From: Chitinophagaceae bacterium | Lineage (GTDB): Bacteria; Bacteroidota; Bacteroidia; Chitinophagales; Chitinophagaceae | Reading direction: 5' to 3' | Length of the DNA: 42,836 bases | NCBI GenBank assembly: GCA_025363075.1 | Contig: JANYEP010000001.1 | Span: forward strand, 1-42,836 | Shown: in pieces, positions 2,689 through 35,922 of the stretch | Layout of the letters: each line of letters starts with the position of its first letter | Position numbering within the stretch: the stretch's first letter is position 1 | The notes under the pieces: generated by a model | Seen by the model: the letters and a program-made list of their open reading frames with translations, nothing else | Told to the model about the DNA's origin: nothing | The model's database searches: none | Made by a program: the position numbers and the translations under genes

Positions 2689-2728
2689 TCAAAAACATTT
2701 AGGCATTAACAAATATGTAGCACTTTTA

Positions 2729-4117: not shown

Positions 4118-4136
4118 AGTCCCGTCCGGTCCGCAG
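4118..4136 (+). other. Candidate attachment site: 3' end of a tRNA gene (att remnant)
   Basis: The bases AGTCCCGTCCGGTCCG read like the last part of a tRNA: the end of the T-loop (AGT), the 3' T-stem strand (CCCGT), the 3' acceptor strand (CCGGTCC) and a G discriminator. An acceptor pairing with GGACCGG and a G73 would fit a tRNA-Ser. The 5' part of a tRNA is absent upstream, as expected where an element has inserted into the 3' end of a tRNA and left a partial copy at its far end. A terminator follows at once, as after many tRNA genes. The G+C richness stands out from the AT-rich surroundings. Confidence 0.45.
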
Positions 4137-4145
4137 ATTAAAAAG

Positions 4146-4183
4146 AAAAAGCCTTGTAAGTCAAATACTTACGAGGCTTTTTT
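4146..4183 (+). terminator. Rho-independent terminator after the tRNA-like fragment
   Basis: The arms AGCCTTGTAAGT (4150-4161) and ACTTACGAGGCT (4167-4178) pair over 12 bp with one G-T wobble around a CAAAT loop. An A-run lies before the stem and a T-run after it, so the hairpin could stop transcription in both directions. It probably originally ended the tRNA transcript. Confidence 0.85.
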
Positions 4184-4393
4184 GATTCTGTGGAAAACAT
4201 TGTCCCAGCGTTTAAAATTTGTCATATTCTTTTTGCAGATAGTTTTATTGAATGATAAAAAATCTTTTAAAGACTCATAATTTTTACAGCACTACGAATC
4301 GATAAATTACTCTGTAAATATTTGCATAGAAATTTTGAAATAAAATAAATAATTATAAACTTTTTGAATTAGAATATAAAAAACAGCGTTGCG

Positions 4394-4401
4394 TAGTTTT
4401 G
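4394..4401 (+). promoter_or_regulatory. Candidate Bacteroidota -7 promoter box for the Crp/Fnr gene
   Basis: TAGTTTTG matches the Bacteroidota -7 consensus TAnnTTTG exactly and ends 24 nt before the chosen ATG, leaving room for a short leader. A TTTTTG run at 4361-4366 is further upstream than the usual -33 spacing, so only the -7 box is convincing. Confidence 0.4.
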
Positions 4402-4425
4402 TTATGTTTGCAAATTATTTTAAGT

Positions 4426-16884: not shown

Positions 16885-16891
16885 TAACTTA

Positions 16892-16945
16892 GCCACAAAG
16901 ACACAAATTGTTTTTAGCTATTTGTGCCTTAGCGTCTTAGTGGCA
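16892..16945. repeat. GCCACAAAG-type hairpin repeat, copy B
   Basis: GCCACAAAGACACAAAT begins at 16892 and the reverse-complement-like arm ends at 16945 (GTCTTAGTGGC). The arms are unequal because one lacks an AAGGCAC-type block. The unit composition matches copy A at 11593-11656. It fills the gap between the SDR stop and the PL17 start. An in-frame ATG upstream of it would put it inside a coding region, which is one reason to reject that start. Confidence 0.65.
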
Positions 16946-16963
16946 AGAAAAAATAAAACGATT

Positions 16964-19156
16964 GTGTTGCTAAAATTAAAAATATTTTTATTGCTTGTTG
17001 TGTGTGCTGTTTGTATTAATACAAATGCTCAAACACAACACCCCATTGCTTTTGCAACTAAAAGCGATATTGAATACATTAAAGCAAATATTAAAACAAA
17101 TGCTTTATTAAAGGAGTCGTACAACGAAATAAAAAAGGCTGTTGACGAATGGTTGGATAAAGATGTTGATGTTCCTTTTCCTAAAGATGCAGCAGGTGGA
17201 TACACGCACGATAAACACAAAGCAAATTATACTTTAATGTTTAACAGTGGAATGATGTATCAACTAACTGGCGATGCTCGTTATGCTAAATTGGTAAAGA
17301 ATATTTTTATAAAATATGCTGCATTAAATCCAACTTTAAAAAACCATCTACAAGCAACAAGCAGTTCTCCAGGTCGCATTTTTTGGCAAGCATTAAACGA
17401 TGCAAACTGGCTTGTATACACAGGTTTGGCGTTTGATTGTATTCACGATTATTTAACGCCACAAGAAAGAAAACAAATAGCTGATGGAGCATTTAAACCA
17501 GAGGTTGATTTCTTTACACACGACTTGAAAAATTGGTTTAATTTAATTCACAACCACGCAGTGTGGGCTTGTGCAGGTGTAGGTTTAGTAGGTATTGCAA
17601 CAGATAATAATGACTATATTGATATGGCTTTGTATGGTGCAGATAAAGATAAAAAAGCTGGTTTTATTGCACATCTTGATGGCTTGTTTTCGCCAGATGG
17701 ATTTTATACTGAAGGGCCATATTACACACGTTATGCTGTGTTGCCATTTTATATGTTTGCAAATGGTTTAAACAATACAAAACCAGCGTTAAAAATATTT
17801 CAGCACCGCAAACAGATTTTAAAGAAAGCATTAGATGGTGCATTGCAACAAACCAATTTAGATGGTGGATTTTTTAGTTACAATGATGCTTTAAAAGAAA
17901 AAAAATATACATCTAATGAATTGGTAAATGCTATCAATATTGCCTGGCAAGTGTATGGAGCTAATAAAAATTATTTAGTTGTAGCAAAAGCACAAGGTCA
18001 CGTAACACTCAGTCGTGGTGGGGCTTCCATAGCAACAGCATTATCAAATTCAAATAATATTCCTAAAAATTTTCCCTATAAAACTATTGAATTTACCGAT
18101 GGTGCAAAAGGAGAAAATGGTGGCGTTTCTGTGTTGAGAAGTGGTAAAGATAAAAACCTTACCACGCTCATTTATAAATATACTTCACTCGGTTTATCTC
18201 ATGGTCATTACGATAAATTGAACCTTAATTTATATGACAATGGTAATGAAATTTTAGAGGATTATGGTGCTGCACGATACATTAATATTGAACAAAAATG
18301 GGGTGGAAGATATTTGCCAGAAACTAAAACTTATGCAAGTACAAGCATTGCACACAACACAGTTGTAGTTGATGGCAAAAGCCATTATAATGGTAAAGAA
18401 GACATCAGTGAAAAACACAATGCCTTTAAAGTTTTTGGTGGGATAAATGATAGTGTTAAAGTAGTATGTGCAAAAGATACTACTGCTTACGACAATACAG
18501 TTTTGCAACGTAGCATTTATATGATTGACGTTAAAGAAACAGGCAAACCTTTGATTGTAGATTTCTTTAAAGTAAATGCTGAAACCCAACACCAGTATGA
18601 CTTGCCATTTCATTACTTAGGAACTTTCATCAGCTCGAACTTTAAGTACAATTCTTATTTAGCCAAGCAAGAAACCTTAGGAATAAAAAATGGTTACCAG
18701 CATTTATGGAAAGAAGGTGATGCTGTAAAGCTTCCACAACTATCGCAAGTAACATTATTAAATAACGAAACTTTTTATACAGTCTCAAGTGTTGCAGATG
18801 ATAGCACAAAAATATTTTTTACAAGAGTTGGAGCTAACGACCCCAACTTTAATTTAAGACACGACCCTGCATTTATTTACAGAAAAAATGGTAGCAATCA
18901 AACCTTTTTTAATGTAATAGAATCGCACGGAAAATTTGATCCTATTGCAGAGGTCTCAACTCGTGCTTATTCATCAGTAAAAAAAATGGAAGTGTTGTAC
19001 AACGATGATGCTTATTCAGTTTTTAGTATTACCACTTCTACCAGAAAAATCACTATTGCACAATCAAACAATAACAATAATAACAACGCCAAACATTCAG
19101 TAAAATTAAACGACAAAACTATTGAATGGACTGGTGCTTATACCATCATCTTTTAA
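16964..19156 (+). CDS. PL17 family oligoalginate lyase
   Basis: This is about 730 residues with a signal peptide (LKLKIFLLLVVCAVCINTNAQ). An alpha/alpha-toroid follows, then a heparinase II/III-like beta-sandwich. Catalytic features match PL17: Asn197-His198 (IHNHAVW), Tyr253/Tyr254 (EGPYYTRY) and His413/His415 (SHGHYDKLN). PL17 enzymes act exolytically on alginate oligomers, often preferring mannuronate, to release unsaturated monouronate in the periplasm. The frame is open back to an ATG at 16862 inside the SDR gene, but those codons cross the hairpin repeat and do not form a signal peptide. The likely start is therefore GTG 16964 or TTG 16967. Confidence 0.93.
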   Translation: MLLKLKIFLLLVVCAVCINTNAQTQHPIAFATKSDIEYIKANIKTNALLKESYNEIKKAVDEWLDKDVDVPFPKDAAGGYTHDKHKANYTLMFNSGMMYQLTGDARYAKLVKNIFIKYAALNPTLKNHLQATSSSPGRIFWQALNDANWLVYTGLAFDCIHDYLTPQERKQIADGAFKPEVDFFTHDLKNWFNLIHNHAVWACAGVGLVGIATDNNDYIDMALYGADKDKKAGFIAHLDGLFSPDGFYTEGPYYTRYAVLPFYMFANGLNNTKPALKIFQHRKQILKKALDGALQQTNLDGGFFSYNDALKEKKYTSNELVNAINIAWQVYGANKNYLVVAKAQGHVTLSRGGASIATALSNSNNIPKNFPYKTIEFTDGAKGENGGVSVLRSGKDKNLTTLIYKYTSLGLSHGHYDKLNLNLYDNGNEILEDYGAARYINIEQKWGGRYLPETKTYASTSIAHNTVVVDGKSHYNGKEDISEKHNAFKVFGGINDSVKVVCAKDTTAYDNTVLQRSIYMIDVKETGKPLIVDFFKVNAETQHQYDLPFHYLGTFISSNFKYNSYLAKQETLGIKNGYQHLWKEGDAVKLPQLSQVTLLNNETFYTVSSVADDSTKIFFTRVGANDPNFNLRHDPAFIYRKNGSNQTFFNVIESHGKFDPIAEVSTRAYSSVKKMEVLYNDDAYSVFSITTSTRKITIAQSNNNNNNNAKHSVKLNDKTIEWTGAYTIIF

Positions 19157-19173
19157 AAACGAAACATAGCCAA

Positions 19174-22100
19174 ATGAAAAAATTTAGTTACTTTTTTTCT
19201 TTCTTATTGCTGCTTCTATTTAATTCTGTTAACGCCCAACAGCCTACAACTAAATTAAAAGTTACGGGCAAAATTATTTCAAGTGAAACTCGCAAACCCT
19301 TAGCCAATGCAAGTGTTAGCATAAAAGGCTCGAAAAAAGGGGTAGTTGCTGACTCGTTGGGAAACTTTACAATTAGGGTAGATAAAGGACAAACAATTGT
19401 AGTTGGCTACACAAGTTTTGAATCACAAGAGTTTAAAGTTTACGGTAATTTGCAACTTGAAGTTACTTTGGTTGCAAGGGTAATAGACAACGAAGAAGTG
19501 GTTGTTGTGGGATATGGTACAAGAAAAAAATCTCATTTGACTGGTGCAATTTCGAAAATTGTTACAGACGAGTATATTGGTCAAATTCCTGTATCTCGTG
19601 CTGATGATGCTTTGAAAGGAAAACTTGCAGGTGTGAACATTTTAACTACAGATGCACAAGCTGGTGCAGCACCAACTATTCAAATTCGTGGTGCAACTTC
19701 TGTTACTGCTGGCACAGATCCCTTGATTGTAATTGATGGTTATCCTGTACCAACTGATTTATCTTCGGTTGATATGAATGATATTGAAAGCATTGAGGTG
19801 TTAAAAGATGCTGCAAGTGCTGCTATATATGGTTCTCGTGGTGGTAATGGCGTTATTTTAATTACTACAAAATCGGGAAAAATTGGCAAAGGAAAGTTTA
19901 GTTTAAATGTTAGCACTGGACAAAAAGCTGTATATAGAAAAATAAAAATTCCATCACTGCAAGAATGGAAATCTTATGTAGCTGCTGATAATGCTGGTGT
20001 TATTCCAGCTGAGATTACACAGGCAGAAAAATTTGATGCACATACTGATGCACAGGATTTTATTTTTAGAAAAGTAAATTTTACAAATGTTCAATTAGCT
20101 GCAAGTGGTGGTACTACTGCCATCAAATATTATTTGTCAGGTAATGCTTTATTGGATAATGGAATAATGCTTGGAAATGATTATAAACGTTTTGGTTTAA
20201 GAGCAGGCTTTACTGCAAAAGTAACGCCTAAGACTACCATTGATTTTAATTTTACTCCATCTTATACTGAAAGATATGATGTACCTGTAACTGTGCAGGA
20301 GGCTATTAGAACTCTACCACCTTGGATGCCAATTTATCATAATGCTATCACATCGGCAGCTACAGGAATTCCAATTGGTTCTATTGCCAATCAAAGAGAT
20401 TTTGATCCAACTCCGGTGAATCCAAATTATACGGGTCCAAATTTAGCATCTGCAACAACCAATAGCCCATTGGAACAATTGACAGGAACAACTGATAAAA
20501 ATACCAATATTCGTGGTATTACTAATTTCTCTGTTAAAGTTGATTTTAATAAAGATTTCTCTTTCAAAAGTACTTTTGGAATATTGTACAGTGAAAATGG
20601 GCGAGAATATTTTCAAAAAAGCTGGGCTCAGGCAGAACCTGCACTTGATGGAATTGCTCTGGCAAGAACAACATCAAAAGCAATTTTAACAAAAACGAGG
20701 TTATTTGATTTTTCTAATGAAAACATTTTAACGTACAAAAAAAATATAAAAAAACACGATATAAATGTTGTTGGTGCTTTCTCTACTCAATACACCAACA
20801 CTGCTTTCTTTAATGCACAAGGAGGAAATTTTGCAACTGACAATATTCCTACACTTAACGCATCTACAATGCAGGTTTTAACAAGTACTATAGAAGAAGA
20901 ATCTTTGTTATCTGTTTTAGGTAGAATTAATTATGCCTATGATAACAGATATCTAATTTCTGTTAGTGAAAGAGCAGATCAAAGTTCACGTTTTGGACCA
21001 GAAAACAGATGGGGATATTTTCCTTCAGTTTCTATAGGTTGGAAATTAAGTAGCGAAAAATTCTTTCCAGAAAATAAAATTGTAAGTGATGCTAAATTTA
21101 GAGCAAGTTATGGTGCAACGGGAAATAAAAATATTGGCAATTACAGATATTTTGCTAATGTTGGACCAGCGTATGCTTCATTAGGAAACTATGTTTCTCC
21201 AGGCTATCAATTGCTTAGCTTTGGGAATAATAACTTAGGGTGGGAAAGAACATTTTCATATAACTACGCAGTTGACTTAGGATTAGCAAATGGAAAAATT
21301 CGCTTAAGCATTGATTATTATAATACTGAAACAGACAAATTATTATTGAATCTTCCAACTGTAGCTTCAACAGGGTTTACAAGTTATCCTGTTAATTTGG
21401 GAAAGGTTTCTAATAAAGGATTTGAAGTTGAAATTTCTTCTACAATTGTTGCTAAAAAAGATTTTAAATGGAATGTATCTGGCAATATTTACACCAATGA
21501 AAATAAATTGTTAGATTTCGGTGGGTCAGATAATCAAATAAGTCAGGGAGATCCTAAAAGAGCTAACTTCTTTTTAACAAAAGTAGGAGCCCCATTAGTC
21601 CAATTTTATGGCTATCAAATGGATAGTTCTGTAACTATTCACAATACAACAAATTTTGCCTCAAACTATTGGCCAATTGGCGTTAAATCATTACACGCAT
21701 TTGTAAAAGACCAAGATGGAAATGGAATTATTACAGATAGTGACAGAGTTGTTTTAGGTAATCCATACCCTAAATTTAATTGGGGTTTTACAAGTAATTT
21801 TCAGTTTAAACAATTTGATTTCAGTTTCACCTTTCAAGGCTCACATGGTGCTAAAGTTTTTAACCTTGATAGATATTATTTTGAAACACAGTTTGGAACA
21901 ACCGGTTCTACAGCTTACAAAAACTCTGATTTATATACTCAACAGCAACAAGATAATGTGAGAATAAAAACACAAACTAATTTTAACCTTGAAGATGCTT
22001 CTTTTATTGCATTGCGTAACATTAACATTGGCTATACATTACCAGCAAAAACGCTAAGAAAGTTTAATTTAACAAAGTTTAGAATGTATTGTTCTGTTGC

Positions 22101-22251
22101 AAATGCATGGTATCATTTTGCAAATGGATATTCAAGCTTTAATCCAGAAGCAGATAATGGATTTCCAAATGATCCATTGCGTAAAGGCTATCAACGTGGG
22201 GCTGTACCTTTACCACGAACTGTAACATTTGGTGTAAATCTTGATTTTTAA
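19174..22251 (+). CDS. SusC/RagA-family TonB-linked outer-membrane transporter
   Basis: The protein has 1025 residues from the ATG at 19174, where a clear signal peptide (KKFSYFFSFLLLLLFNSVNAQ) begins; an in-frame ATG at 19126 lies inside PL17. A carboxypeptidase-D regulatory-like domain (about 27-100) is followed by the plug with EEVVVVGYGTRKK and SIEVLKDAASAAIYGSRGGNGVILITTK. A 22-strand barrel ends in the usual aromatic strand (TFGVNLDF). It imports alginate oligosaccharides across the outer membrane with energy from TonB. The SusD partner follows 18 nt later. Confidence 0.95.
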   Translation: MKKFSYFFSFLLLLLFNSVNAQQPTTKLKVTGKIISSETRKPLANASVSIKGSKKGVVADSLGNFTIRVDKGQTIVVGYTSFESQEFKVYGNLQLEVTLVARVIDNEEVVVVGYGTRKKSHLTGAISKIVTDEYIGQIPVSRADDALKGKLAGVNILTTDAQAGAAPTIQIRGATSVTAGTDPLIVIDGYPVPTDLSSVDMNDIESIEVLKDAASAAIYGSRGGNGVILITTKSGKIGKGKFSLNVSTGQKAVYRKIKIPSLQEWKSYVAADNAGVIPAEITQAEKFDAHTDAQDFIFRKVNFTNVQLAASGGTTAIKYYLSGNALLDNGIMLGNDYKRFGLRAGFTAKVTPKTTIDFNFTPSYTERYDVPVTVQEAIRTLPPWMPIYHNAITSAATGIPIGSIANQRDFDPTPVNPNYTGPNLASATTNSPLEQLTGTTDKNTNIRGITNFSVKVDFNKDFSFKSTFGILYSENGREYFQKSWAQAEPALDGIALARTTSKAILTKTRLFDFSNENILTYKKNIKKHDINVVGAFSTQYTNTAFFNAQGGNFATDNIPTLNASTMQVLTSTIEEESLLSVLGRINYAYDNRYLISVSERADQSSRFGPENRWGYFPSVSIGWKLSSEKFFPENKIVSDAKFRASYGATGNKNIGNYRYFANVGPAYASLGNYVSPGYQLLSFGNNNLGWERTFSYNYAVDLGLANGKIRLSIDYYNTETDKLLLNLPTVASTGFTSYPVNLGKVSNKGFEVEISSTIVAKKDFKWNVSGNIYTNENKLLDFGGSDNQISQGDPKRANFFLTKVGAPLVQFYGYQMDSSVTIHNTTNFASNYWPIGVKSLHAFVKDQDGNGIITDSDRVVLGNPYPKFNWGFTSNFQFKQFDFSFTFQGSHGAKVFNLDRYYFETQFGTTGSTAYKNSDLYTQQQQDNVRIKTQTNFNLEDASFIALRNINIGYTLPAKTLRKFNLTKFRMYCSVANAWYHFANGYSSFNPEADNGFPNDPLRKGYQRGAVPLPRTVTFGVNLDF

Positions 22252-22269
22252 TTTTAAATTTTTTATAGA

Positions 22270-23748
22270 ATGAAAACGAAATATTTTATTTTATCATTTA
22301 CTTTAGTACTATTGTTAACAACAATTGGTTGTAGTAAATTTTTAGACAAAGAACCTGTTTCAACATATGTTGAAGAGGAATATTATAAAAATACTGACCA
22401 GGTAGAAACTGGTGTAATTGGATGCTATGCAGCAGTTCGCCCACTTTATAATTTAGATTATATTCTGGCAGGACTACGTTCTGATGATGCATATATTTCT
22501 GAAGCCGAGGGTGATATTAACCAGATTGATGGATTTGGTGAAACTACTACCAACTCTTATGTTTCATCTTATTGGCAAACTGCATATTTTGCTATTAAGC
22601 AATGCAATACTGTATTAAAATATTTAGATAGCGTTACAGACCCTATAAAGAAAAATTATTTTGAAGGCGAGGCTAAATTTTTAAGAGCACACATGTATTT
22701 TAATTTAGTACGTCTTTATGGTGATGTTCCTTTAGTTACCAAATCTGTTGCTTATAATGATGTGTCTTCTTATGTGCGAATTAATAAAGACACTGTTTAC
22801 AATCAAATAATTGCTGATTTTAAGGTAGCCATTCAGAAGCTTCCAGCAAGTTGGACTACTGCTGAAATTGCACGTGCTACCAATTATGCAGCCAAGGGAA
22901 TGTTAGCTAAAGTGTATCTTACACAAAAAGACTATGCTAATGCAAAAATTTTATTATTAGACCTTCTACAAAACCCAGGTCAATATCAATTGCTTCCAGG
23001 TTATAAAAGCATTTTTGGTAACAATGAAATGAATGCTGAAATATTATATGCTGTAAGGTTTAGAGGAAATTCAAATGGTCTTGGAAATACATTTACTTAT
23101 AATACTGATAGGCAATCTGGTTCTGTAGGATTTAGAGCTGCAAGTGATTTCAGGGGTAATACGCCTTTTCCTGCTGCAGATTCTATTCGCAAAAGCCAAA
23201 CATTTATTTTATACACTGGTGTGAATAGCACAGGAGGATTGAGTACAAGTTATTATTGTGGTGGGAAATTTTTAGACCCAGGCTCTGTTAGAAATGATGG
23301 TGGTGCAGATTTTATTGTGTTAAGATATGCTGATGTTATTCTAATGTATGCTGAAACAGAAAATGAAATTAATGGAGGTGTTCCATTAGTTGCGAGTGAT
23401 ACGAGTAATCCACAATCAAGATTATACCAATTGAATAGAATACGAATTCGTGCAGGAGGTGCTTTTCCTAAAGCTGTACCAGCATATACATATAATTCAA
23501 CCACAATAAATACGCAGGATAAGTTTAGAATAGCAATAAAAGCAGAGCGTAGAAAAGAGTTTGGCGAAGAAGATCAACGCTGGTATGATTTATTGCGTTG
23601 GGGCGATGCAGTAACTGTAATGAATGCTCATTTTTCATCACGTTCCATCAATACTACTATTTTGCCTTATCAAACTTTGTTTCCAATACCACAAAGAGAA
23701 ATTGATGTAAGCGGAGGAATTATTAAACAAAATCCTGGGTATCATTAA
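22270..23748 (+). CDS. SusD/RagB-family glycan-binding lipoprotein
   Basis: This 492-residue surface lipoprotein has lipobox Cys21 (LLTTIGC). It carries the SusD marks SKFLDKEP after the lipobox, EAKFLRAHMYFNLVRLYGDVPLV near 125, AAKGMLAKVYLTQKDYANA near 205, and the C-terminal RRKEFGEEDQRWYDLLRWGD. It caps the SusC barrel and captures oligosaccharides. No SusE/F-like or other surface glycan-binding lipoprotein follows it in the operon, so a later T9SS protein may fill that role. Confidence 0.95.
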   Translation: MKTKYFILSFTLVLLLTTIGCSKFLDKEPVSTYVEEEYYKNTDQVETGVIGCYAAVRPLYNLDYILAGLRSDDAYISEAEGDINQIDGFGETTTNSYVSSYWQTAYFAIKQCNTVLKYLDSVTDPIKKNYFEGEAKFLRAHMYFNLVRLYGDVPLVTKSVAYNDVSSYVRINKDTVYNQIIADFKVAIQKLPASWTTAEIARATNYAAKGMLAKVYLTQKDYANAKILLLDLLQNPGQYQLLPGYKSIFGNNEMNAEILYAVRFRGNSNGLGNTFTYNTDRQSGSVGFRAASDFRGNTPFPAADSIRKSQTFILYTGVNSTGGLSTSYYCGGKFLDPGSVRNDGGADFIVLRYADVILMYAETENEINGGVPLVASDTSNPQSRLYQLNRIRIRAGGAFPKAVPAYTYNSTTINTQDKFRIAIKAERRKEFGEEDQRWYDLLRWGDAVTVMNAHFSSRSINTTILPYQTLFPIPQREIDVSGGIIKQNPGYH

Positions 23749-23791: not shown

Positions 23792-24154
23792 ATGAATAAC
23801 GAAGAATTACTAATACAACAAGCTGCTTTTGTAACAGATGAAAGTTTAGAATGGGAAACAGTTGCCCCAGGTATGAAACGAAAAATTATGGCTTACGATA
23901 GTAGAGTTATGGTAGTAAAAGTTGCTTTTGAAAAGGGAGCAATTGGTACGTTGCATCATCACTATCACACACAAATTGGCTATGTAGCAAAAGGTGTTTT
24001 TGAGGTGGAAGTTGATGGTAAAAAACAAGTATTGAAAGAAGGTGATGTTTTCTATGCTACACCAAATATTATACACGGTGCAGTATGTTTAGAAGAAGGA
24101 ATGTTGATAGATATTTTTAGCCCAATGCGTGAAGACTTTTTACCAACTTCTTAG
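23792..24154 (+). CDS. kdgF: KdgF-like cupin (unsaturated uronate linearisation)
   Basis: The 120-residue single cupin has the metal-site pattern LHHHYHTQIGYVAKG (His55, His57, Gln61 as likely ligands) and His95 (PNIIHG), matching KdgF. KdgF catalyses ring opening of the 4,5-unsaturated monouronate released by PL17 and PL6 exolyases. This gives the linear keto form used by the DEH reductase or KduI. There is no signal peptide, so it acts in the cytoplasm. It lies between SusD and PL7 with short gaps (43 and 31 nt). Its presence supports import of monomers by the MFS transporter later in the operon. Confidence 0.9.
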   Translation: MNNEELLIQQAAFVTDESLEWETVAPGMKRKIMAYDSRVMVVKVAFEKGAIGTLHHHYHTQIGYVAKGVFEVEVDGKKQVLKEGDVFYATPNIIHGAVCLEEGMLIDIFSPMREDFLPTS

Positions 24155-25531: not shown

Positions 25532-26410
25532 ATGAAAAAAATATTTCTATTGCTATCATTTTTTGCAACTATAAATTTATTTGCACAAGATGAAACTGTT
25601 GTAAAGAAAGTAGAATTCCCTGTTGGGTACGAAGCCAAAATTGATGAGGTTTACCACGAAATTAATGGCTGGAAAGGAAGGGAAGATATTTACTTTAATC
25701 CAAAAGCTGCAAAGCCAACACCAGTTGTTTTTAATATTCACGGTGGAGGTTGGAATCACGGCACAAAAGAAAGTCAAACTGGCTATGGTAGCTGGTTTAA
25801 AATGGGCTTTGCTGTTGCTAATATTGAATATAGAATGTATCCTCAAGCTACTGCTCCTGCTGCAATTGAAGATGTTCGTGCTGCAATTCTGTATGTAGTA
25901 TCTCACGCTAAGAAATTAAATATTGACCCTAATAAAATTGTAATAATGGGTGGTAGTGCTGGTGGTCATTTAGCATTACTTGCTGGCTTGTTGCAAAACG
26001 ATAACAAGTTTGATGGAAAATATAAAGATGTTAAAGGCTACACAATAGCTGCAATAGTTGATAAATATGGACCTGCAGATTTAAGTGCAGGAAATTTTTC
26101 AAAATATAAATCACTTGTTAATTGGCTTGGTAATGAAGGTGCAAACAAAAAATTTAGAGAATCTCTTTCACCAGTTTATTATGTAAAAAAAACAAGCCCG
26201 CCAACATTCATTGTTCACGGAGACGCAGATCCAATTGTACCTTATCAACAATCAGTTGATTTAAAAAAGAAATATGATGAAGTGGGGGCAAAGAGTGAAT
26301 TTATGACAATACCTGCTGGAATGCACGGCAAATTTCCTAAGGAACAAAATACTGCTTTAAGTGCTGCTATTACTAAGTTTTTAACAGATTTAAATATCCC
26401 AAATAAATAA
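25532..26410 (+). CDS. Exported alpha/beta-hydrolase esterase, paralogue 1
   Basis: The 292-residue protein has a signal peptide (1-19, NLFAQ). It has an alpha/beta-hydrolase fold of the BD-FAE/acetyl-esterase group: oxyanion motif HGGGWNHGT (70-78), nucleophile Ser142 (GGSAGGH), Asp233 (HGDADPIVPY) and His265 (AGMHGKF). It could remove acetyl or other ester groups from the polymer or its oligomers. Its stop overlaps the ATG of the next, clearly related esterase by one base. Two esterases in an alginate operon suggest acetylated (bacterial) alginate or another decorated uronan, which is inference. Confidence 0.88.
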   Translation: MKKIFLLLSFFATINLFAQDETVVKKVEFPVGYEAKIDEVYHEINGWKGREDIYFNPKAAKPTPVVFNIHGGGWNHGTKESQTGYGSWFKMGFAVANIEYRMYPQATAPAAIEDVRAAILYVVSHAKKLNIDPNKIVIMGGSAGGHLALLAGLLQNDNKFDGKYKDVKGYTIAAIVDKYGPADLSAGNFSKYKSLVNWLGNEGANKKFRESLSPVYYVKKTSPPTFIVHGDADPIVPYQQSVDLKKKYDEVGAKSEFMTIPAGMHGKFPKEQNTALSAAITKFLTDLNIPNK

Positions 26411-27324
26411 TGAAAAAAATATTATTCATAACTCTAATAGCAATTAGTTCAAGTGTTATTGCACAAGATGATAGTGTTGCTTCAAAGAAGCAAGATACAC
26501 CAGTTGTTAAAAAAATAAAATTCCCTACTGGCTACAAAGCCAATCTTGATGCAGTTTACAGCGAAATTGATGGTTGGAAAGGAAGGGAAGATATTTACTA
26601 TAATCCAACTGCTGCAAAGCCAACACCAGTAATATTTAATATTCATGGTGGAGGTTGGAACAAAGGAACAAAAGAAGCCCAAGGTGGTTTTGATATGTAT
26701 TTTAAAATGGGCTTTGCTGTTGTGAATGTTGAGTATAGATTGAGCCAACAAGCAAGTGCTCCTGCTGCAGTTGAAGATGTGAGGGCAGCAATGTTATACG
26801 CAGTAAAAAAAGCTAAGGAATTAAATATTGATCCCAATAGAATTGTTGTGATGGGTAGTAGTGCTGGAGCTCATTTAGCATTAATGTGTGGTCTGCTGCA
26901 ACACGATACAAGATTTGATGGGGCATATAAAAAAGTGAAGAAATATGAGATTGTTGCCATTATTGATAAGTCTGGTATTACAGATGTTTGGGATTGGGCT
27001 TATGGTAAAAATAAAACCAGCAAATCTGCAACAATGTGGTTGGGTGCAAGAGATAAAGATGAAGCGTTTGCTAAAACTGTTTCACCAATTCACTATGTTA
27101 AAAAAACAAGCCCACCAACTTACATTGCTCACGGTGATGCTGATCTTGTTGTGCCATATCAGGAAGCTGTTGCATTGAAAAATAAATTTGAAGAAGTTGG
27201 TGCAAAATACGTTTTTAAAACCGTTCTTGGTGGAGGACACGGAAAATATACACGAGAACAAAACGATGAAATCAGTAAAGAGATTACTAAATTTCTAATT
27301 GACTTAAACTTCCTTGATAAATAA
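26410..27324 (+). CDS. Exported alpha/beta-hydrolase esterase, paralogue 2
   Basis: The 304-residue protein has a signal peptide (1-19, SSVIAQ), HGGGWNKGT (79-87), nucleophile Ser151 (GSSAGAH), Asp245 (HGDADLVVPY) and His277 (GGGHGKY). Long stretches match the preceding esterase, for example the GWKGREDIYYNP region and the VKKTSPPTYI region, so the pair arose by tandem duplication. The differences lie in the lid segment around residues 188-205 (ITDVWDWAYGKNK here, PADLSAGNFSKYK there). That suggests different ester positions or chain lengths. It is coupled by one-base overlaps to both neighbours. Confidence 0.88.
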   Translation: MKKILFITLIAISSSVIAQDDSVASKKQDTPVVKKIKFPTGYKANLDAVYSEIDGWKGREDIYYNPTAAKPTPVIFNIHGGGWNKGTKEAQGGFDMYFKMGFAVVNVEYRLSQQASAPAAVEDVRAAMLYAVKKAKELNIDPNRIVVMGSSAGAHLALMCGLLQHDTRFDGAYKKVKKYEIVAIIDKSGITDVWDWAYGKNKTSKSATMWLGARDKDEAFAKTVSPIHYVKKTSPPTYIAHGDADLVVPYQEAVALKNKFEEVGAKYVFKTVLGGGHGKYTREQNDEISKEITKFLIDLNFLDK

Positions 27325-28517
27325 TGAAGCTGACTAAAAAATATATCATTTTCTTAACACTAATGTGCTTGCAAAAACAAGTTGTAGCTCAAGCCATAGA
27401 ACTTTACTTGCACGATGCAAAGAAAGTAGCAGCTACTAAAAGTTTAGCAAAGAACGATGTGGCAATTAAAGAAAAAATTGCCCAGCTTTCTAAACAAGCA
27501 GACAAATTAGTGAATAAAAAATTTGGCTCAGTAATGGATAAAAATGTGCTGCCACCTTGTGGTAACAAACACGAATATTTAAGTTTAGCAAGATATTACT
27601 GGCCAGATCCAAGCAAGCCTGATGGTAAGCCTTACATTAAAAAGGATGGTGAAAAAAATCCTGATAACGATTTGATAAGTGATGATAAAAATTTTGATGA
27701 TTTAATAGCAGCAGTAAATGATTTGTCTTGGGCATATTATTTTACCAATGAAAATAAATATGCAGAAAAAGCAGTGCAGCTAATTCGCTTTTGGTTTTTA
27801 GATACTGCAACTTATATGTCACCTAACCTGAATCACGCACAAGTGAGAACTGGTATTGATACTGGTGTAAGCACAGGTATTATTGATACACATAATTTAC
27901 CTCAAATGCTTGATGCTATTGGTTTATTACACTCTTCAGCTATTTGGAAACTATCAGATGAAAGTGGAATGAAACAGTGGTTTGATGATTATTTATATTG
28001 GTTGCTTAACAGTAATAATGGGAAAAAAGAAAGGGAAGCTAAAAATAATCACGGTACTTTTTATGATATGCAAGTTGCATCCATTGCATTGTTTTGTGGA
28101 CAGAAAAAAGTTGCAGATGAAATATTGAAAAATGATTTTGAACGCCTTGCCTGGCAAGTTGAAATTGATGGCAAACAACCCTTGGAACTATCACGAACAT
28201 TGGCTTTGAGTTATTCAACTTTTAATTTAGAAGCGTGGTTTCGATTAGCAAGTATTGCTGAAAAAAATGGTGTTGATTTTTGGCATTACGAAACCAAAGA
28301 TGGAAGGAGTTTGAAAAAAGCATTGGTTTATTTAATACCTTTTGTAGTTGATGGAAAGCCTTGGGAATACAAGCAAATTAATAAATATAAACAACAAGAT
28401 TTATATCGTTTGTTACTTATTGCAGCAGAGAAATTTAAAGATGACAAGTATAAAAAGCAAGCAGAGAAAATAAAGGACAGTAACAAAAATGTGTTAGTGG
28501 ATTTATTAAATACTTAA
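27324..28517 (+). CDS. PL38-like alginate lyase (alginate_lyase superfamily)
   Basis: The 397-residue protein has a signal peptide (about 1-23) and an (alpha/alpha) toroid fold of the Pfam alginate_lyase group. Typical features are KHEYLSLARYYWPDP (83-97), SPNLNHAQ (166-173), and the catalytic-type NNHGTFYDMQ (241-250) with His243 and Tyr247. The length and these motifs resemble PL38 enzymes, which cleave mannuronate- or glucuronate-rich polymers, more than PL5. No T9SS tail is present, so it is probably periplasmic. It overlaps the upstream esterase gene by one base. The PL38 family call needs a profile search. Confidence 0.8.
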   Translation: MKLTKKYIIFLTLMCLQKQVVAQAIELYLHDAKKVAATKSLAKNDVAIKEKIAQLSKQADKLVNKKFGSVMDKNVLPPCGNKHEYLSLARYYWPDPSKPDGKPYIKKDGEKNPDNDLISDDKNFDDLIAAVNDLSWAYYFTNENKYAEKAVQLIRFWFLDTATYMSPNLNHAQVRTGIDTGVSTGIIDTHNLPQMLDAIGLLHSSAIWKLSDESGMKQWFDDYLYWLLNSNNGKKEREAKNNHGTFYDMQVASIALFCGQKKVADEILKNDFERLAWQVEIDGKQPLELSRTLALSYSTFNLEAWFRLASIAEKNGVDFWHYETKDGRSLKKALVYLIPFVVDGKPWEYKQINKYKQQDLYRLLLIAAEKFKDDKYKKQAEKIKDSNKNVLVDLLNT

Positions 28518-28529: not shown

Positions 28530-30614
28530 ATGAATTCGATAATAAAATATACTATACTATTATGTTGCATTCTATTTTGCAATAACAGCTTTGCAACAAA
28601 TTATACTGTTACTACAAAATCTACTTTGCAATCAAAAATGGTGGCAGCTTTGCCTGGCGATACAGTTATTGTTGCTAATGGTACCTACAATAATTGGGGC
28701 AGTATTTCTTTTGCAAATACCAAAGGAACAGCTACATCTACCTGGATAGTATTAAAAGCTCAAACCTTTAATGGCGTTGTGTTTACTGGCACAACAAGCC
28801 TTTCATTTTCTGGCAAACGCATTTTAGTAACTGGTTTTAAATTTACAAATGGAAGTACTGGTGGAACAACTGATGTATTACAATTCAGAACTTCGTCAAC
28901 TGTTTTTGCAAGTTACTCACGCATCACAAATATTACATTCGATAATTTCAATAGTGATTCAACTGGTTCTTATCTCAACAATAGTAGTGATATAGATAAT
29001 AAATGGGTTTCACTTTATGGTACAAACAACAGGGTTGACCATTGTACATTCATCAATAAATTTAATGCAGGAGCAACTGTTACTGTGTGGTATGATAACA
29101 ATACATATCCTCAATTATCAACTACAACTTATCATTATATTGATTCAAATTATTTTAATGGGAGAGGCTATTTAGGTGACAATGGAGGAGAAACAATAAG
29201 GGTTGGAACAAGCACTGTTTCACGTTCTGTGGGTAAGAATGTTATAGAGTATAATATGTTTGAAAATTGCGTACAAACAGAGCCGGAAATAATTTCAAAT
29301 AAATCTGGGTTCAACACATATCGTTATAACACATTTAAAAATTGTAATGGAGGATTAACATTAAGGCAAGGCAGGTATTGCAGTGTTTATGGCAACTTTT
29401 TTATTGTTGATAATCCTGTAAGAACAAACTCTTATGGTATCAGGGTTATTGATAAAGGTCACAAGATTTACAACAACTATATTGAAGGAATATTAGGTAA
29501 TAAAAACAAGCTAACTTCTTTGCGTTGTCCCATTATTTTATACAATGGACTTTCATCAATAAATGATACAACTGATGCAAGCAAAGCTGCTGGATATTTT
29601 CCTACAGATAGCGTGGTTGTTGCGTTTAACACAGTTGTTAATTGCTCAGGTGGTGGTGGAATTGTGTTAGGATTTACAGATGGCGGTGCAAATATTTACC
29701 AACCAAAAGGAATACAGGTTGCTAATAATTTAATTAAAATGACTACAGGTCAAGCTGCCTATATAGATCCTGTAAATACTGCACTAACTTATTCTGCTGA
29801 AGGAAATTTTTATTCAGCACCAAGTTTAGGCTTAGCATCATCAACAGGGTTTTCAAATAGTACTTTAACTTTTGGTACAAGAACAAATGGCATTTTACCA
29901 CCGCCTTCTCTTGTGCAAGATGCAGCAACAAATACTGCAACATATTCTTCTTTATTAAATTATTTGGATGTAAATGGAAAAACAAGAACTGCTCTTTTTG
30001 ATGTTGGTTGCCAGGAATTAAATGGAACAGGAAACATTATTGCAAGCCCATTAGACTCTACTTTAGTTGGTGCAGGAAAACCTGTGATAATTACTCCTGT
30101 AACACTTATTAATTTTTCAGCTTTTACAGTAAATAATGCAATAAATCTTAAGTGGTTTGTAGAAAATGAAATTAATTTTTTACAGTATGAAATTGAGTAT
30201 AGTGTTAATGGTATAAACTTTGTGAAAACTTCTACAGTAAAGGCTTTGCAGCAATCATCATATAGTTATGTTTTTACGGATAAAAGCAATTCTAAAAATT
30301 ATTTTAGATTGAAATTGGTAGATAAAAATGGCACTTTTTCTTATTCAAATGTTGCTGTGGTTGATGCAAAAATTGCATTCAATATTTACCCAAATCCGAC
30401 AAAGAATTTTATTACTATAGATGTTAGTAATGACCAGCATAAATATTATGCAATAATTACTGATATGCTTGGAAAGCCTGTGAAGCAAGCGATGCTTGCA
30501 TCTCAACACAACACCATTTCAACAAATGGGTTTATAGACGGATTTTATACTGTTCAGATTATAGAAAATAATCAAGTTGTTAATATTTATCCAATTATTA
30601 TTTCTAAACAATAA
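28530..30614 (+). CDS. PL6 family alginate lyase with T9SS C-terminal domain
   Basis: This 694-residue protein has a signal peptide (1-22) and a PL6 beta-helix (about 24-430). The catalytic pair is Lys258 (EIISNKS) and Arg279 (LTLRQGR) at the standard 21-residue spacing. The supporting NRVDHCTF and GGETIRVG repeats are present. After a linker comes an FN3-like module (about 525-610: INLKWFVENEINFLQYEIEY) and a type A T9SS sorting domain with YPNP, so the enzyme is probably secreted or fixed to the cell surface. The FN3 plus sorting tail closely resembles that of the next protein. Confidence 0.93.
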   Translation: MNSIIKYTILLCCILFCNNSFATNYTVTTKSTLQSKMVAALPGDTVIVANGTYNNWGSISFANTKGTATSTWIVLKAQTFNGVVFTGTTSLSFSGKRILVTGFKFTNGSTGGTTDVLQFRTSSTVFASYSRITNITFDNFNSDSTGSYLNNSSDIDNKWVSLYGTNNRVDHCTFINKFNAGATVTVWYDNNTYPQLSTTTYHYIDSNYFNGRGYLGDNGGETIRVGTSTVSRSVGKNVIEYNMFENCVQTEPEIISNKSGFNTYRYNTFKNCNGGLTLRQGRYCSVYGNFFIVDNPVRTNSYGIRVIDKGHKIYNNYIEGILGNKNKLTSLRCPIILYNGLSSINDTTDASKAAGYFPTDSVVVAFNTVVNCSGGGGIVLGFTDGGANIYQPKGIQVANNLIKMTTGQAAYIDPVNTALTYSAEGNFYSAPSLGLASSTGFSNSTLTFGTRTNGILPPPSLVQDAATNTATYSSLLNYLDVNGKTRTALFDVGCQELNGTGNIIASPLDSTLVGAGKPVIITPVTLINFSAFTVNNAINLKWFVENEINFLQYEIEYSVNGINFVKTSTVKALQQSSYSYVFTDKSNSKNYFRLKLVDKNGTFSYSNVAVVDAKIAFNIYPNPTKNFITIDVSNDQHKYYAIITDMLGKPVKQAMLASQHNTISTNGFIDGFYTVQIIENNQVVNIYPIIISKQ

Positions 30615-31991
30615 ATGAGCTATAAAAGCAACATATCGGTAATAATATTTATAGCAATCATATTTGCTGTAATGCCTATACTTGCTACATCACAGGTTAC
30701 ACTTGATGCAAATGGGCCAGGGCAAACCTATGAATTAATCAATAGTGTTTTAGCACCAGGTTATACTGCTGTTGAAGCCCCAGACCAATGCACAAGCCAC
30801 CCAAGTTTTGGAAGACATATTGCAGAAGTGTGGGATGCTACCTTGAACAAATATGTGTTTGAATTTTATATTCACGTGCCAACATCTTTTCCTGTAACTG
30901 CAACAACTGCTGATAATGATAGGTGTATCAATTTCGACAGGCAAAGGGTTGAAATAAAAACGTATGAATCATCACCAGCAAACTTAAAAGGAACAGTAGG
31001 GGAGACTGTAAATTATAAATGGAAATTCAGGCTGCCATTGGGCTTTAGGCCATCGCCAAATTTTACGCATATACATCAAGTAAAGGCAGTAGGTGGTGAT
31101 GAAGGTGATCCATTATTTACATTGACTGTAAGAAAAAGCAACCCTGATATTTTGCAATCGCTTTATGTAAAGGATAGTGCGACTTCAGAATTTGTGCAAG
31201 GATTTGTAAATCTTTCTTCGATTGCTGGCATTTGGATAGAGGCAACCGAAGTTATAAAAGTTGGTGCAAATGGAACTTATTCAATTACTTTAAAACGTGT
31301 GAGTGATAGCGTTACTTTGCTTTCATATAATAACGCAAACGTAGCAACCATAAGGCCTTCAAATACTTTCATTAGACCCAAATGGGGAATTTACAGAAGC
31401 CTCAATAGCTATTCATATTTAAGGGATGACACAATTCGCCTTGCAAATATTTCCATTCAAGAAGGAGTGTTGCCTGTGCATCTTACAAATTTTACTGCAT
31501 CAATAATAAATAAAAAAATCGAACTGAAATGGAGTGTAGAAAACGAAATTAATTTTAGTGATTATGAAATTGAGTATAGCAACAACGGCATTGGCTTTAA
31601 CAAGATTGGAAATGTAAAAGCAGCCACTAAAACCGCATACAATTTTATATATAATAACAATCAACCAAAACAATTTTATCGTTTAAAGTTGATAGATAAA
31701 GATGGCAGGTTTTCTTACTCAAATATTATTTCATTGTTTACCAATGATAAAGTTGAATTAAGCCTATATCCTAATCCTGCAAAGAATTGTATCACTATTT
31801 CAACAAATGAACTTCATTCAAATAGTACATTAATTATTAGTGATGCAGTTGGTGTTGTTGTAAAGAAAACTGCATTAACAAATGCTGTAACAATAATTGA
31901 AACCAATAAGTTTTTAAATGGAATTTATCATATTCAATTATTAGAAAACAATCAAATCATTTGTAATAACACTTTTGTTATTGCACGATAG
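30615..31991 (+). CDS. Secreted jelly-roll protein, candidate polysaccharide lyase of unassigned family, with T9SS tail
   Basis: The 458-residue protein has a signal peptide (about 1-26), a beta-rich domain (about 28-284), an FN3-like module (about 287-370) and a T9SS tail (YPNP at 385-388). Three segments parallel the catalytic layout of jelly-roll lyases (PL7, PL13, PL18, PL20): DRQRVEIKTY (108-117), THIHQVK (151-157) and RPKWGIYRS (254-262). These would supply Arg, Glu, His, Gln, Lys and Tyr. I cannot place it in a named family. The spacing differs from PL7, and the motifs are THIHQ rather than QIH. Its position between two PL6-related genes, and the tail it shares with the T9SS PL6, argue that it acts on the same polymer. 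It starts directly after the preceding stop codon. Confidence 0.65.
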   Translation: MSYKSNISVIIFIAIIFAVMPILATSQVTLDANGPGQTYELINSVLAPGYTAVEAPDQCTSHPSFGRHIAEVWDATLNKYVFEFYIHVPTSFPVTATTADNDRCINFDRQRVEIKTYESSPANLKGTVGETVNYKWKFRLPLGFRPSPNFTHIHQVKAVGGDEGDPLFTLTVRKSNPDILQSLYVKDSATSEFVQGFVNLSSIAGIWIEATEVIKVGANGTYSITLKRVSDSVTLLSYNNANVATIRPSNTFIRPKWGIYRSLNSYSYLRDDTIRLANISIQEGVLPVHLTNFTASIINKKIELKWSVENEINFSDYEIEYSNNGIGFNKIGNVKAATKTAYNFIYNNNQPKQFYRLKLIDKDGRFSYSNIISLFTNDKVELSLYPNPAKNCITISTNELHSNSTLIISDAVGVVVKKTALTNAVTIIETNKFLNGIYHIQLLENNQIICNNTFVIAR

Positions 31992-31997: not shown

Positions 31998-32984
31998 ATG
32001 AAAACAATAATTACGATATTATCATTTAGTGTTTTTTGCAGTTGCACTGCACAGCAAAAGCTTGTTATAAAAACTATCAAAGTTTCCTCTGCAAGTGGCT
32101 TGCAGCAAGCACTTGATTATGCAAAGCCCGGTGATGAAATTGTTATTAACGATGGTAAATATGAAGGTAATTTTAAAATACCTACTACTGCAAATGGCAC
32201 ACGAAATAATCCAATTGTATTGCGTGGATCAAGTAAGGCTATTTTAAATGGAAGTACTACAAACACTGGATATGTGTTGCATTTGCAAGCGAGTTATTGG
32301 GTTATTAAAAACTTCACTATTACCAATGGCTTAAAAGGCATTATTGCTGATGGTGCAAATTATAATTTAATTGATAGTTTAACAGTAAATACAATTGGTG
32401 AAGAAGCCATTCATTTAAGAAAGTTCTCTTGTCACAACTCAATACAGCATTGCATAATATCAAATACAGGTTTAAAAACTCCTGATTATGGCGAAGGAAT
32501 TTATTTAGGAAGTGCTGTAAGTAATTGGACAAAATATACTAATGGATTAGAAGATAAATCTGACTCAAACTCAGTTATTGAAAATATAATAGGACCTGAT
32601 GTTGCTGCTGAATGTATTGATATAAAAGAAGGTTCAACAGGCGGAATTATTCGTGGAAATAAATTTAATTCAACTGGCATCACAGGTGCTAATAGTGGTG
32701 ATAGTTGGATGGATGTAAAAGGTAATGGTTATCTTATAGAAGGCAATACTGGTTTCAATCCTAAGGGTTCTGTATTGAAGGATGGATACCAGGTACATTG
32801 TGCAGTTGATGGTTGGGGAAATGATAATATTTTCAAGAACAATACTTGTGAAGTTAATGCAGATGGATATGGAATAAACATAACATTAAAGAGTAGTAAA
32901 GGTGAAGCAACAGGAAATAAGGTTTATAAAAGCAATACTGTTATTGCAGCCAAAAGTGGCTTAACAAATATTTCGAGTGAGTAG
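31998..32984 (+). CDS. Right-handed beta-helix protein of unassigned family
   Basis: The 328-residue exported protein has an N-terminal signal with cysteines near the cleavage site (FCSCTAQQ), possibly a lipoprotein. The body is a parallel beta-helix: repeats such as GIIADGANYNLIDSLTV, ECIDIKEGSTGGIIRGNKF and MDVKGNGYLIEGN each end in Asn-rich turns. The PL6 Lys/Arg signature is absent, so it is not a fourth PL6. It may be a lyase of another beta-helix family, an epimerase-like fold or a binding protein. Conserved acidic clusters (KTPDYGEGIYLG, AAECIDIKEG) could hold calcium or the active site. It lies 6 nt after the jelly-roll gene. Confidence 0.65.
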   Translation: MKTIITILSFSVFCSCTAQQKLVIKTIKVSSASGLQQALDYAKPGDEIVINDGKYEGNFKIPTTANGTRNNPIVLRGSSKAILNGSTTNTGYVLHLQASYWVIKNFTITNGLKGIIADGANYNLIDSLTVNTIGEEAIHLRKFSCHNSIQHCIISNTGLKTPDYGEGIYLGSAVSNWTKYTNGLEDKSDSNSVIENIIGPDVAAECIDIKEGSTGGIIRGNKFNSTGITGANSGDSWMDVKGNGYLIEGNTGFNPKGSVLKDGYQVHCAVDGWGNDNIFKNNTCEVNADGYGINITLKSSKGEATGNKVYKSNTVIAAKSGLTNISSE

Positions 32985-33007: not shown

Positions 33008-34492
33008 ATGAAAGTTAAAGGTTTGCGTTGGTGGGTTTTAGGATTGGTGGTTTTAATAACTATCATTAACTATCTTGATAGAGGTACACTTAATTATATG
33101 TGGGTTGCCAATACCAAGGTTAAGTATGATGTTGTAGTGAATGTTAATGATGCTAAACCAAACACTAATTATGCAACGATGAATGCAGACAGTTCTTATG
33201 TTTTGTCAAGTACTGATGGTGTGATTAAATCTGTTTTAAAAAAGGAAATTGTCGTGTTGGAAAACAATCAAATTCAATTCACAAAAAAAGGTGGTATTGC
33301 TTATGAACTTGGCTTGGTTAATTTAAACGATAAACAAAGTGTAGTTGACGATAAGCTTAAAAAATTATACTCTTATATCTATATGTTTTTTATGGTCGCT
33401 TATGGCATTAGTCAATTAGTTTCAGGAAAAATTTATGATAAAATCGGAACGAGAAAAGGCTTTGTAATGAGTGCACTAATTTGGGGAACTGCTGATATGC
33501 TTACATCACTGGCAAGAGGTGTTGGTTCATTGAGTTTCTTTAGGGTTTTATTAGGGCTTGGAGAAGCTGGTCCTTGGCCAGGAACTGTAAAGTCAAATGC
33601 TGAATGGTTTCCTGTAAAGGAACGTGCCTTAGCTCAAGGCTTGTTTGGTGCAGGAGGCTCTATTGGTAACATTCTTGCACCAATTGTAATCTCAATGCTA
33701 TTCATAAAATTTGGTTGGCAAAACACATTTATCATTGTTGGTTCTTTAGGAATTTTATGGATTATCCCCTGGTTAATTTTAAACAAAAAGAAACCTGCTG
33801 AGCACCCTTGGATTACTGATGAAGAAAGGGAATATATTTTATCTGGTCAACCAGAAAATAAGTTACAAAACGATGTTGCAAAATCCTGGAGCGAGTTGTT
33901 ACAAGATAAAAAAAGTTACTCCGTTATTTTAGGTCGTTTCTTCTTAGACCCAATCTGGTGGATGTTTGTAGCCTGGTTGCCTGTTTATCTTACCAATAAA
34001 TTTAAACTTGATATTAAACAAGTTGCTTTCTCTGCGTGGGTACCTTATGTGGGTGCAGCAATTGGTGCTATTACTGGTGGTTGGTTTTCGGGTTACTTAA
34101 TAAGGAAAGGAAAATCTGTAAATGCTGCAAGACGAACCGCCATTATAATTGGTGCTTGCATTATTCTTCCTGCAATGATTGCTGCAGCCTTTGCCAGCAC
34201 TGCATTAGTGGCTGTTTTAATTATGAGTTTTATTCTGGGAGGATTTCAATTTGCTATTGTAAATGTGCAAACATTACCAAGCGATTTTCATTCAGGAAAA
34301 ACTGTTGGTTCACTTTCAGGATTGGGTGGTGCAGCGGCAGTTTTAGGAACAATCTGCACAATGTTTTTAGTGCCATACATAACAGCAGGAAATAATTGGA
34401 CACCATTTTTTGTAATGGGTACTTTATTAATTCCAATGGGTATATTCTGTGTATTTTTCTATAGCGATAAAATTAAAAAAGCTACCGTTTAA
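33008..34492 (+). CDS. MFS hexuronate-type transporter with a large loop after TM1
   Basis: The 494-residue inner-membrane protein belongs to the anion:cation symporter (ExuT-like) branch of the MFS. TM1 is RWWVLGLVVLITIINYLDRGTLNY, later signatures are SGKIYDKIGTRKG and LGLGEAGPWPG, and there are 12 hydrophobic segments in all. It should import unsaturated monouronate from the periplasm. Relatives have a short TM1-TM2 loop, but here about 75-80 residues (roughly 35-115) intervene, with a Thr/Ser- and Lys-rich sequence and beta-like segments. By topology this loop is periplasmic. The stop overlaps the next ATG by one base (PL6), which ties transport to depolymerisation. Confidence 0.92.
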   Translation: MKVKGLRWWVLGLVVLITIINYLDRGTLNYMWVANTKVKYDVVVNVNDAKPNTNYATMNADSSYVLSSTDGVIKSVLKKEIVVLENNQIQFTKKGGIAYELGLVNLNDKQSVVDDKLKKLYSYIYMFFMVAYGISQLVSGKIYDKIGTRKGFVMSALIWGTADMLTSLARGVGSLSFFRVLLGLGEAGPWPGTVKSNAEWFPVKERALAQGLFGAGGSIGNILAPIVISMLFIKFGWQNTFIIVGSLGILWIIPWLILNKKKPAEHPWITDEEREYILSGQPENKLQNDVAKSWSELLQDKKSYSVILGRFFLDPIWWMFVAWLPVYLTNKFKLDIKQVAFSAWVPYVGAAIGAITGGWFSGYLIRKGKSVNAARRTAIIIGACIILPAMIAAAFASTALVAVLIMSFILGGFQFAIVNVQTLPSDFHSGKTVGSLSGLGGAAAVLGTICTMFLVPYITAGNNWTPFFVMGTLLIPMGIFCVFFYSDKIKKATV

Positions 34493-35922
34493 TGAAACAA
34501 TTTTTAGTCATATTATTTTCTTGTTACAGCTTTTGTGCAAATGCTACAGACTATACTGTTAGTAGTGTTGATGAACTAAATATTGTACTTAAAAAAGCAA
34601 ATAATAACGATATTATTATTTGGAAAAATGGAACATACAATGATGTTAAAATAAATTTTACTACAATAAAACAGCACCTTGTTCTAAGAGCTGAAACTGC
34701 TGGAATGGTTGTTTTTAAAGGCTCTTCATTCATTTCAGTTAATGGTGATTACTTACAAGTAGAAGGCTTTTTATTTGAGGGAATATCAACATTAGATAAA
34801 GACGATGTGATGGCTTTTACACAAAGTTCAAACCACTGTAGAATTACAAATTGTGCTGTAATTAATTATTCTTCTAAAGGAGAATTTGATAATAACAACT
34901 GGATAAGTTTACAAGGCTTATATAATGAGGTTGACCATTGCTATTTCAGTGGCAAAACAAACAAAGGACCTTATTTAGTAGTACGATATAAAACAGATAA
35001 AAATTTTGTAGAAGGCAGTGATGCTGCACCTTCAACACACCATCACATTCATCATAATTATTTTGGATACAGAACATTTAGTGAAAATGGGGGAGAGGAT
35101 ATGAGGATTGGAGATAGTAGAACATCTTTTACACACGGCTTCAATATTATTGAATATAACTATTTTGAAGAAGAAAGATTGGAAGCCGAAATCATTAGCA
35201 ATAAGAGTTGGAACAATATTTATCGCTTCAATACTTTCATTGCAAACGATGGAGCTATGTGTTTACGTCACGGTCAAAAGTGTTTTGTTTATGGCAATTA
35301 TTTAGATGGTAAAACTGGTAGAAATACAAGTGGTGGACTTAGAGTTGTAAATGCAAATCAAACAGTATTTAATAATTATGTTGTTAATGTTGAAGGCAGC
35401 GAAAAAAATGCTTTAAAAGCTGGCATAGTTGTAATGTGTGGGCTTGAACATAGCGAAATCAATGGCTACTATGCAGCAGATAGTGCAGTTGTAGCATATA
35501 ACACTTTTGTTAATTGTGTGGGTCCTGTTATTAAAGTTGGTGTTGGAAATAAAAGTAAAGGACAACCTTTCATTGCTCCAAAAGACATTTCACTTGTTTC
35601 AAATCTTGTTATTAATTCTTATGGACAAGCAAACAAAGCAATGATGGAATATGAAACAGTAACATATAATGTTTGCAAAAATAATTTTTATACAAATGGT
35701 GGAAGCATTGGTGTTAAAGGGTTTGAAGCCATTAAAGAAAAGAATATCATCAAACAAAATGGATTTGATTATTATAAAATAACTATTGATGATGATATTA
35801 TAAAAACAATCAATCAACGATTAGCTATACACAATATACATTTGACAAATGAAGAAATTACACACTTCAATCCTAAATGGAAATTAGATAAAAAAGATGT
35901 AGGTGTAAGTTGGATGAAATAA
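34492..35922 (+). CDS. PL6 family alginate lyase, single domain
   Basis: This 476-residue exported protein has a signal peptide (about 1-18) and one PL6 beta-helix. The catalytic pair is Lys238 (EIISNKS) and Arg259 (MCLRHG). The supporting NEVDHCYF, HHHIHHNYFG and ENGGEDMRIG segments are present. There is no second beta-helix domain and no sorting tail, so it is probably periplasmic. It is the third PL6 of the locus. The three differ in domain make-up (two-domain, T9SS-tailed, single-domain), which suggests division of labour between endolytic surface and exolytic periplasmic steps. Confidence 0.92.
   Translation: MKQFLVILFSCYSFCANATDYTVSSVDELNIVLKKANNNDIIIWKNGTYNDVKINFTTIKQHLVLRAETAGMVVFKGSSFISVNGDYLQVEGFLFEGISTLDKDDVMAFTQSSNHCRITNCAVINYSSKGEFDNNNWISLQGLYNEVDHCYFSGKTNKGPYLVVRYKTDKNFVEGSDAAPSTHHHIHHNYFGYRTFSENGGEDMRIGDSRTSFTHGFNIIEYNYFEEERLEAEIISNKSWNNIYRFNTFIANDGAMCLRHGQKCFVYGNYLDGKTGRNTSGGLRVVNANQTVFNNYVVNVEGSEKNALKAGIVVMCGLEHSEINGYYAADSAVVAYNTFVNCVGPVIKVGVGNKSKGQPFIAPKDISLVSNLVINSYGQANKAMMEYETVTYNVCKNNFYTNGGSIGVKGFEAIKEKNIIKQNGFDYYKITIDDDIIKTINQRLAIHNIHLTNEEITHFNPKWKLDKKDVGVSWMK

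Follow-up and report, generated by a model that had tools for sequence, protein, structure and literature searches.

The window analyzed here is a stretch of 42,836 nucleotides from a Chitinophagaceae bacterium (GenBank assembly GCA_025363075.1, contig JANYEP010000001.1). The genes placed below all lie on the + strand. An SDR reductase (probably a DEH reductase), a PL17-type lyase, SusC and SusD occupy 16129–23748, where the genes are seen as ORFs and the PL17-type lyase is assigned by Pfam. They are followed by a KdgF-like cupin (23792–24154), seen as an ORF and matched by a cupin in the syntenic relative L136; cupins of this kind open the ring of unsaturated uronate. Next come a PL7 alginate lyase (PF08787; 24186–25526), two BD-FAE-like esterase genes with a PF05426 alginate lyase (25532–28517; the first esterase assigned by Pfam) and a PL6-type lyase (PF14592) with a T9SS tail (28530–30614). 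The stop codon of this PL6 gene abuts, with no gap, the ATG of our target, an ORF at 30615–31991 that encodes 458 amino acids and whose exact boundaries the translation confirmed. Six bases downstream begins a short PL6-like beta-helix protein (31998–32984; Pfam), and an MFS transporter and a further PL6 (PF14592) follow at 33008–35922 (ORFs and Pfam). The PL7, PL17-type, PF05426 and PL6 lyases and the BD-FAE esterase were named from Pfam, and the SusC, SusD, MFS, reductase, cupin and KduI/KduD-like genes from sequence and syntenic relatives, with the annotated relative NZ_OY725910.1 used for the reductase, SusC and SusD. Around the target gene, neither the promoter scan nor the terminator scan gave signal above that of shuffles.

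The target protein begins with a hydrophobic leader, probably a Sec signal peptide, read by eye in the translation (about residues 1–26; 30615–30692; MSYKSNISVIIFIAIIFAVMPILATSQ). A jelly-roll lyase-like domain (residues 1–259 in P0001 numbering; 30690–31466) is indicated by an AlphaFold2 model, structure matches and a weak PF14099 match. It is followed by an Ig-like or FN3-like linker domain (residues ~285–383; 31467–31763), recognized by its similarity to the corresponding part of the adjacent PL6, and by a T9SS type A sorting domain (match at 384–450; 31764–31988) that passes the cut-offs of both PF18962 (32.1 bits against 27) and TIGR04183 (28.7 against 23). By this C-terminal domain, the predicted protein is a T9SS cargo. 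As the first-pass annotation had claimed, the tail resembles that of the neighboring PL6: linker and sorting domain together are 45% identical over 166 amino acids to the PL6 upstream, which is the best among the other tail matches genome-wide. Similar tails recur at dozens of positions in the genome, so the tail says little about substrate or function, and we dropped it as evidence on the substrate.

Our AlphaFold2 model of the 260-residue domain, built from a 59-row alignment, is a confident beta-sandwich (mean pLDDT 92.1, pTM 0.91). Three motifs that had been picked out from the letters alone, DRQRVEIKTY (D83–Y92; 30936–30965), THIHQVK (T126–K132; 31065–31085) and RPKWGIYRS (R229–S237; 31374–31400), are present in that order in the translation and fall on modeled strands 84–90, 126–134 and 227–237, in keeping with the strand-like context proposed for them. 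The model thus has the layout of PL7-type folds, a jelly roll with three motifs on strands, and from the strand positions and the homologous folds the motifs are expected to share one cleft. Foldseek ranks the glucuronan lyase 2zzj first (3.8e-10) and places heparin lyase I, PL14, ulvan lyase, PL7 and PL36 behind it; where a structure entry has no family number in its title, we give the family that we take it to belong to. VIA-align places heparin lyase I of PL13 (3ina, 3imn, 3ikw) at Z 19.6, GH131 hydrolases at 18.9, PL20 glucuronan lyase 2zzj at 18.6 (208 residues, r.m.s.d. 3.1, 18% identity), PL36 at 17.1, PL7 at 17.0 and PL14 at 16.9. The solved members of PF14099, from PL13 and PL20, therefore share the fold, and lyase structures are best or near-best neighbors of the model. 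The jelly roll foreseen in the first-pass annotation is borne out, as a confident sandwich close to PL13, PL20, PL36, PL7 and PL14.

The motifs are strongly conserved. R86, E88 and K90 in the first, H127, Q130 and K132 in the second, and R229, K231, G233 and Y235 in the third are all retained in 123 of the 126 rows of an alignment that includes some genes twice, and we therefore regard the motifs as family hallmarks and not chance. The remaining three rows are a single gene of one genome, the family member L154 (G297:C58), which has lost R86, K90, H127 and Y235 together and retains E88, Q130, K132, R229 and K231; in the stretch around it we found no recognized polyuronate gene, and its product is probably a pseudo-enzyme or a binding protein. 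H129 is replaced by Phe in one subgroup, amounting to 8 of 110 domains, of which seven read H-I-F-Q and one H-F-F-Q.

The lyase-like reading of the first pass holds for the fold, the motif order, the lack of a PL7 match and the association with alginate genes, but the nearest kin are PL13 and PL20 (PF14099) and not PL7. PL7 alginate lyases resemble the target in fold and in the order of their motifs (R-x-E-x-R, Q-x-H and K-x-G-x-Y), whereas the PF08787 profile did not match the target protein and hhalign of the family alignment against the PL7 of the window found nothing; on these two results, we reject PL7 membership. PL36 and PL14 alginate lyases (Aly36B, 5gmt) are likewise similar in fold, but they are 9–10% identical and we found no sequence relation. 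The description of the protein as unassigned is true in that the window domain scores under the curated cut-off of PF14099 (Polysacc_lyase; 23.2 bits against 29.9), yet it overlooks that this weak match exists. By hmmscan, PF14099 matches 18 of 19 family members (best 4.9e-8), and two relatives exceed the cut-off: L071 with 33.1 bits and L030, the nearest tree neighbor of the window protein (69% identity), with 31.6. The window protein consequently belongs to PF14099 by transitivity only. Compared by hhalign with 11 other PF14099 proteins, the family shows no significant similarity (probability 1%); the Pfam link therefore depends on hmmscan, and the family is remote from those proteins.

A profile of the same 11 proteins matches 2zzj (4.4e-9) and heparin lyase I, and it aligns with the latter at QWH (His151, chain numbering) and KFGIYR (Tyr357). 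By motif spacing, read by eye, F125-T-H127-I-H129 and K231-W-G-I-Y235 of the target occupy these QWH and KFGIY places, which puts H129 and Y235 in line with His151 and Tyr357. PL13 thus shares with the target the jelly roll and the register of F-x-x-x-H and K-x-G-I-Y-R. It differs in having no sequence match, in size (~370 residues against 260), in reading QWH where the target has HIHQ-K, and in context, which for the target is alginate or other uronates and not heparin. PL20 offers the best Foldseek match, a similar size and a common tie to PF14099, but it has no direct sequence match and reads ANR where PF14099 proteins have QxH. Searches of PDB sequences with phmmer and profiles matched no PL13 chain and found no solved structure or characterized homolog; profile matches to a fibronectin-binding protein (E 0.0017) and dynein (0.27) were dismissed as chance. 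The literature searched yielded no characterized member and no description of PL44–46 that fits the target. We conclude that the nearest known kin is the heparin lyase I and glucuronan lyase group.

The family is widespread and apparently unstudied. Confirmed relatives are encoded in at least 508 stretches of GTDB contigs, and the family was present in 19 of 195 sampled genomes of the same taxonomic family, 12 of 395 in the class sample and 7 of 247 in the phylum sample, each count including the genome studied here. PL5, PL6, PL7 or PL17 genes occur at 13 of 20 relatives' loci, as against none of twenty 20-kb control stretches taken mostly from the same contigs. In a larger set of 101 loci, 53 have a lyase of these four types and 23 a GH88-like gene, and 12 of the latter 23 lack another of the lyase types searched. 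The target-type domain occurs as a fusion with CBM96 in L143, L024 and L077, and in L066 it shares one polypeptide with PL6, Ig-like domains lying between the two (1488–4859). CBM96 has been described as an alginate-specific binder (PMC9971899). In a Chitinophaga-labeled MAG, a target-type domain, a GH18 domain and fn3 share one reading frame (L068, 9237–12188). Five loci (L071, L078, L097, L064 and L048) form a distinct recurrent type, with two domain copies near each other and a SASA-type esterase, DUF4861, KduI and KduD. A BD-FAE-type esterase often lies directly 5′ of the family gene (L032, L033, L037, L038, L053 and others), a hint that the substrate may be an acetylated polyuronate.

The family also reaches a Bacteroides finegoldii plasmid, where a protein that aligns over 98% of the query with 38% identity ends an alginate-type cluster composed of SusC/D, a chondroitinase-B-domain protein, a heparinase II/III-family protein, a cupin, an MFS transporter, a reductase, an alginate lyase and an esterase. 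We read this cluster as PL6, PL17-like, cupin, alginate lyase and esterase genes with the family member last. That protein, a distant member, bears the name 'heparin lyase I family protein', which is no more than a label.

Ten Flavobacterium loci share the order SusC–SusD–GH88–GH2–X–GH2, where X is the target family, and contain no other lyase type searched; their X copies form one clade of the tree, in which the placement of L156 and L157 is unsafe because of their long branches. At one of these loci, Pfam identified the four neighbors as SusD, GH88 and two GH2. Because GH88 enzymes act on unsaturated uronides, which are lyase products, a lyase is expected at such loci, and among the lyase types searched X is the only recognized candidate.

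Taken with the predicted fold, the motif conservation and the family link, this genomic context leads us to infer that the target is very likely a polysaccharide lyase, which is the best explanation of its chemistry. With equally high confidence, we regard it as a secreted cell-surface lyase of an uncharacterized family beside the heparin lyase I and glucuronan lyase group (PF14099). After export by Sec and then T9SS to the cell surface, its jelly-roll cleft would bind a polyuronate, with R86 and K90 of the first motif and R229 and K231 of the third neutralizing the uronate carboxylate. The C5 proton would be taken by a histidine of the second motif, H127, with H129 in most members, and Y235 would donate a proton to the leaving O4, so that beta-elimination, presumably in an endo fashion, releases unsaturated oligosaccharides. 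The catalytic base is uncertain, because H129, the residue aligned with His151 of heparin lyase I, is Phe in some domains. The conservation pattern argues that the indispensable pair may be H127 and Y235 rather than H129, or that the tyrosine may serve as both acid and base, as it does in some PL7 enzymes. The oligosaccharides would then enter through SusC/D, and their breakdown would be completed by the PL6, PL17 and PF05426 lyases together with the KdgF-like cupin and the uronate reductase. A bolder proposal, in which our confidence falls somewhat short of even, is that these proteins form a new PL family with its own CAZy number, comprising alginate or polyuronate surface endo-lyases found from freshwater Chitinophagaceae to gut Bacteroides, in which H-x-[HF]-Q-x-K replaces Q-x-H and catalysis centers on H127 and Y235; PL44–46 were compared with it by description.

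For the window protein, the most likely substrate is alginate. The gene is flanked on both sides by PL6 genes, its cluster also holds PL7, PL17-type and PF05426 lyases, its nearest tree neighbors adjoin alginate-type lyases, and CBM96 and PL6 fusions occur elsewhere in the family. These observations weigh against a substrate other than alginate, in which the lyase chemistry and fold would be kept and the enzyme would cut a glucuronan-like or other GlcA polymer that travels with alginate clusters; glucuronan-like polymers are the main rival substrate. We consider this unlikely for the window protein, while recognizing that glucuronan lyase and heparin lyase are among its nearest functional folds, that KduI- and KduD-like genes are present in the window, and that some members adjoin GH88 and GH2 at loci lacking other recognized alginate lyases and others adjoin KduI or KduD. 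Because the loci of some members contain GH88 and GH2 but no further recognized lyase, the polyuronate attacked probably differs between branches of the family. Within the window, positions 10809 to 35922 make up a large polyuronate cluster that comprises four PL6-type genes, a PL7, a PL17-type and a PF05426 lyase and two esterase genes, and its downstream genes are of both the alginate type (SDR reductase) and the KduI/KduD type, which suggests that more than one uronate polymer is used.

A potential objection to lyase activity of any kind is that jelly rolls are common among binding modules and that Cip1 combines a lyase fold and cleft with no significant lyase activity detected (PMC3764139). 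Against a non-catalytic carbohydrate-binding or Cip1-like role, the ten motif residues are nearly always retained and are lost jointly in one degenerate gene, and some members already have a separate CBM96; we find such a role improbable. Cip1 is absent among the 50 VIA-align rows listed, which does not count against it. A GH131-type glycoside hydrolase with no lyase activity is more doubtful still, for all that GH131 structures fit the fold equally well, since E88 is the only invariant acid among the motif-strand positions tabulated and GH131 enzymes are thought to use two catalytic acids, the invariant His, Tyr, Arg and Lys set is typical of lyases, GH88 neighbors need a lyase product, and the sequence relation is to Polysacc_lyase.

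Overall, we see in this family a component of Bacteroidota alginate and polyuronate clusters, one of them on a plasmid of a gut Bacteroides, that accompanies known lyases and has no role assigned to it so far. Its predicted fold and active-site layout are very probably those of alginate-, glucuronan- and heparin-cutting enzymes, and it is probably an extra cutter, by its predicted activity, of alginate or a similar acidic sugar in an alginate-eating cluster. If it is a surface-acting lyase, it would help to explain the first opening of large polymers and would provide a new type of enzyme for making alginate or glucuronan oligosaccharides.
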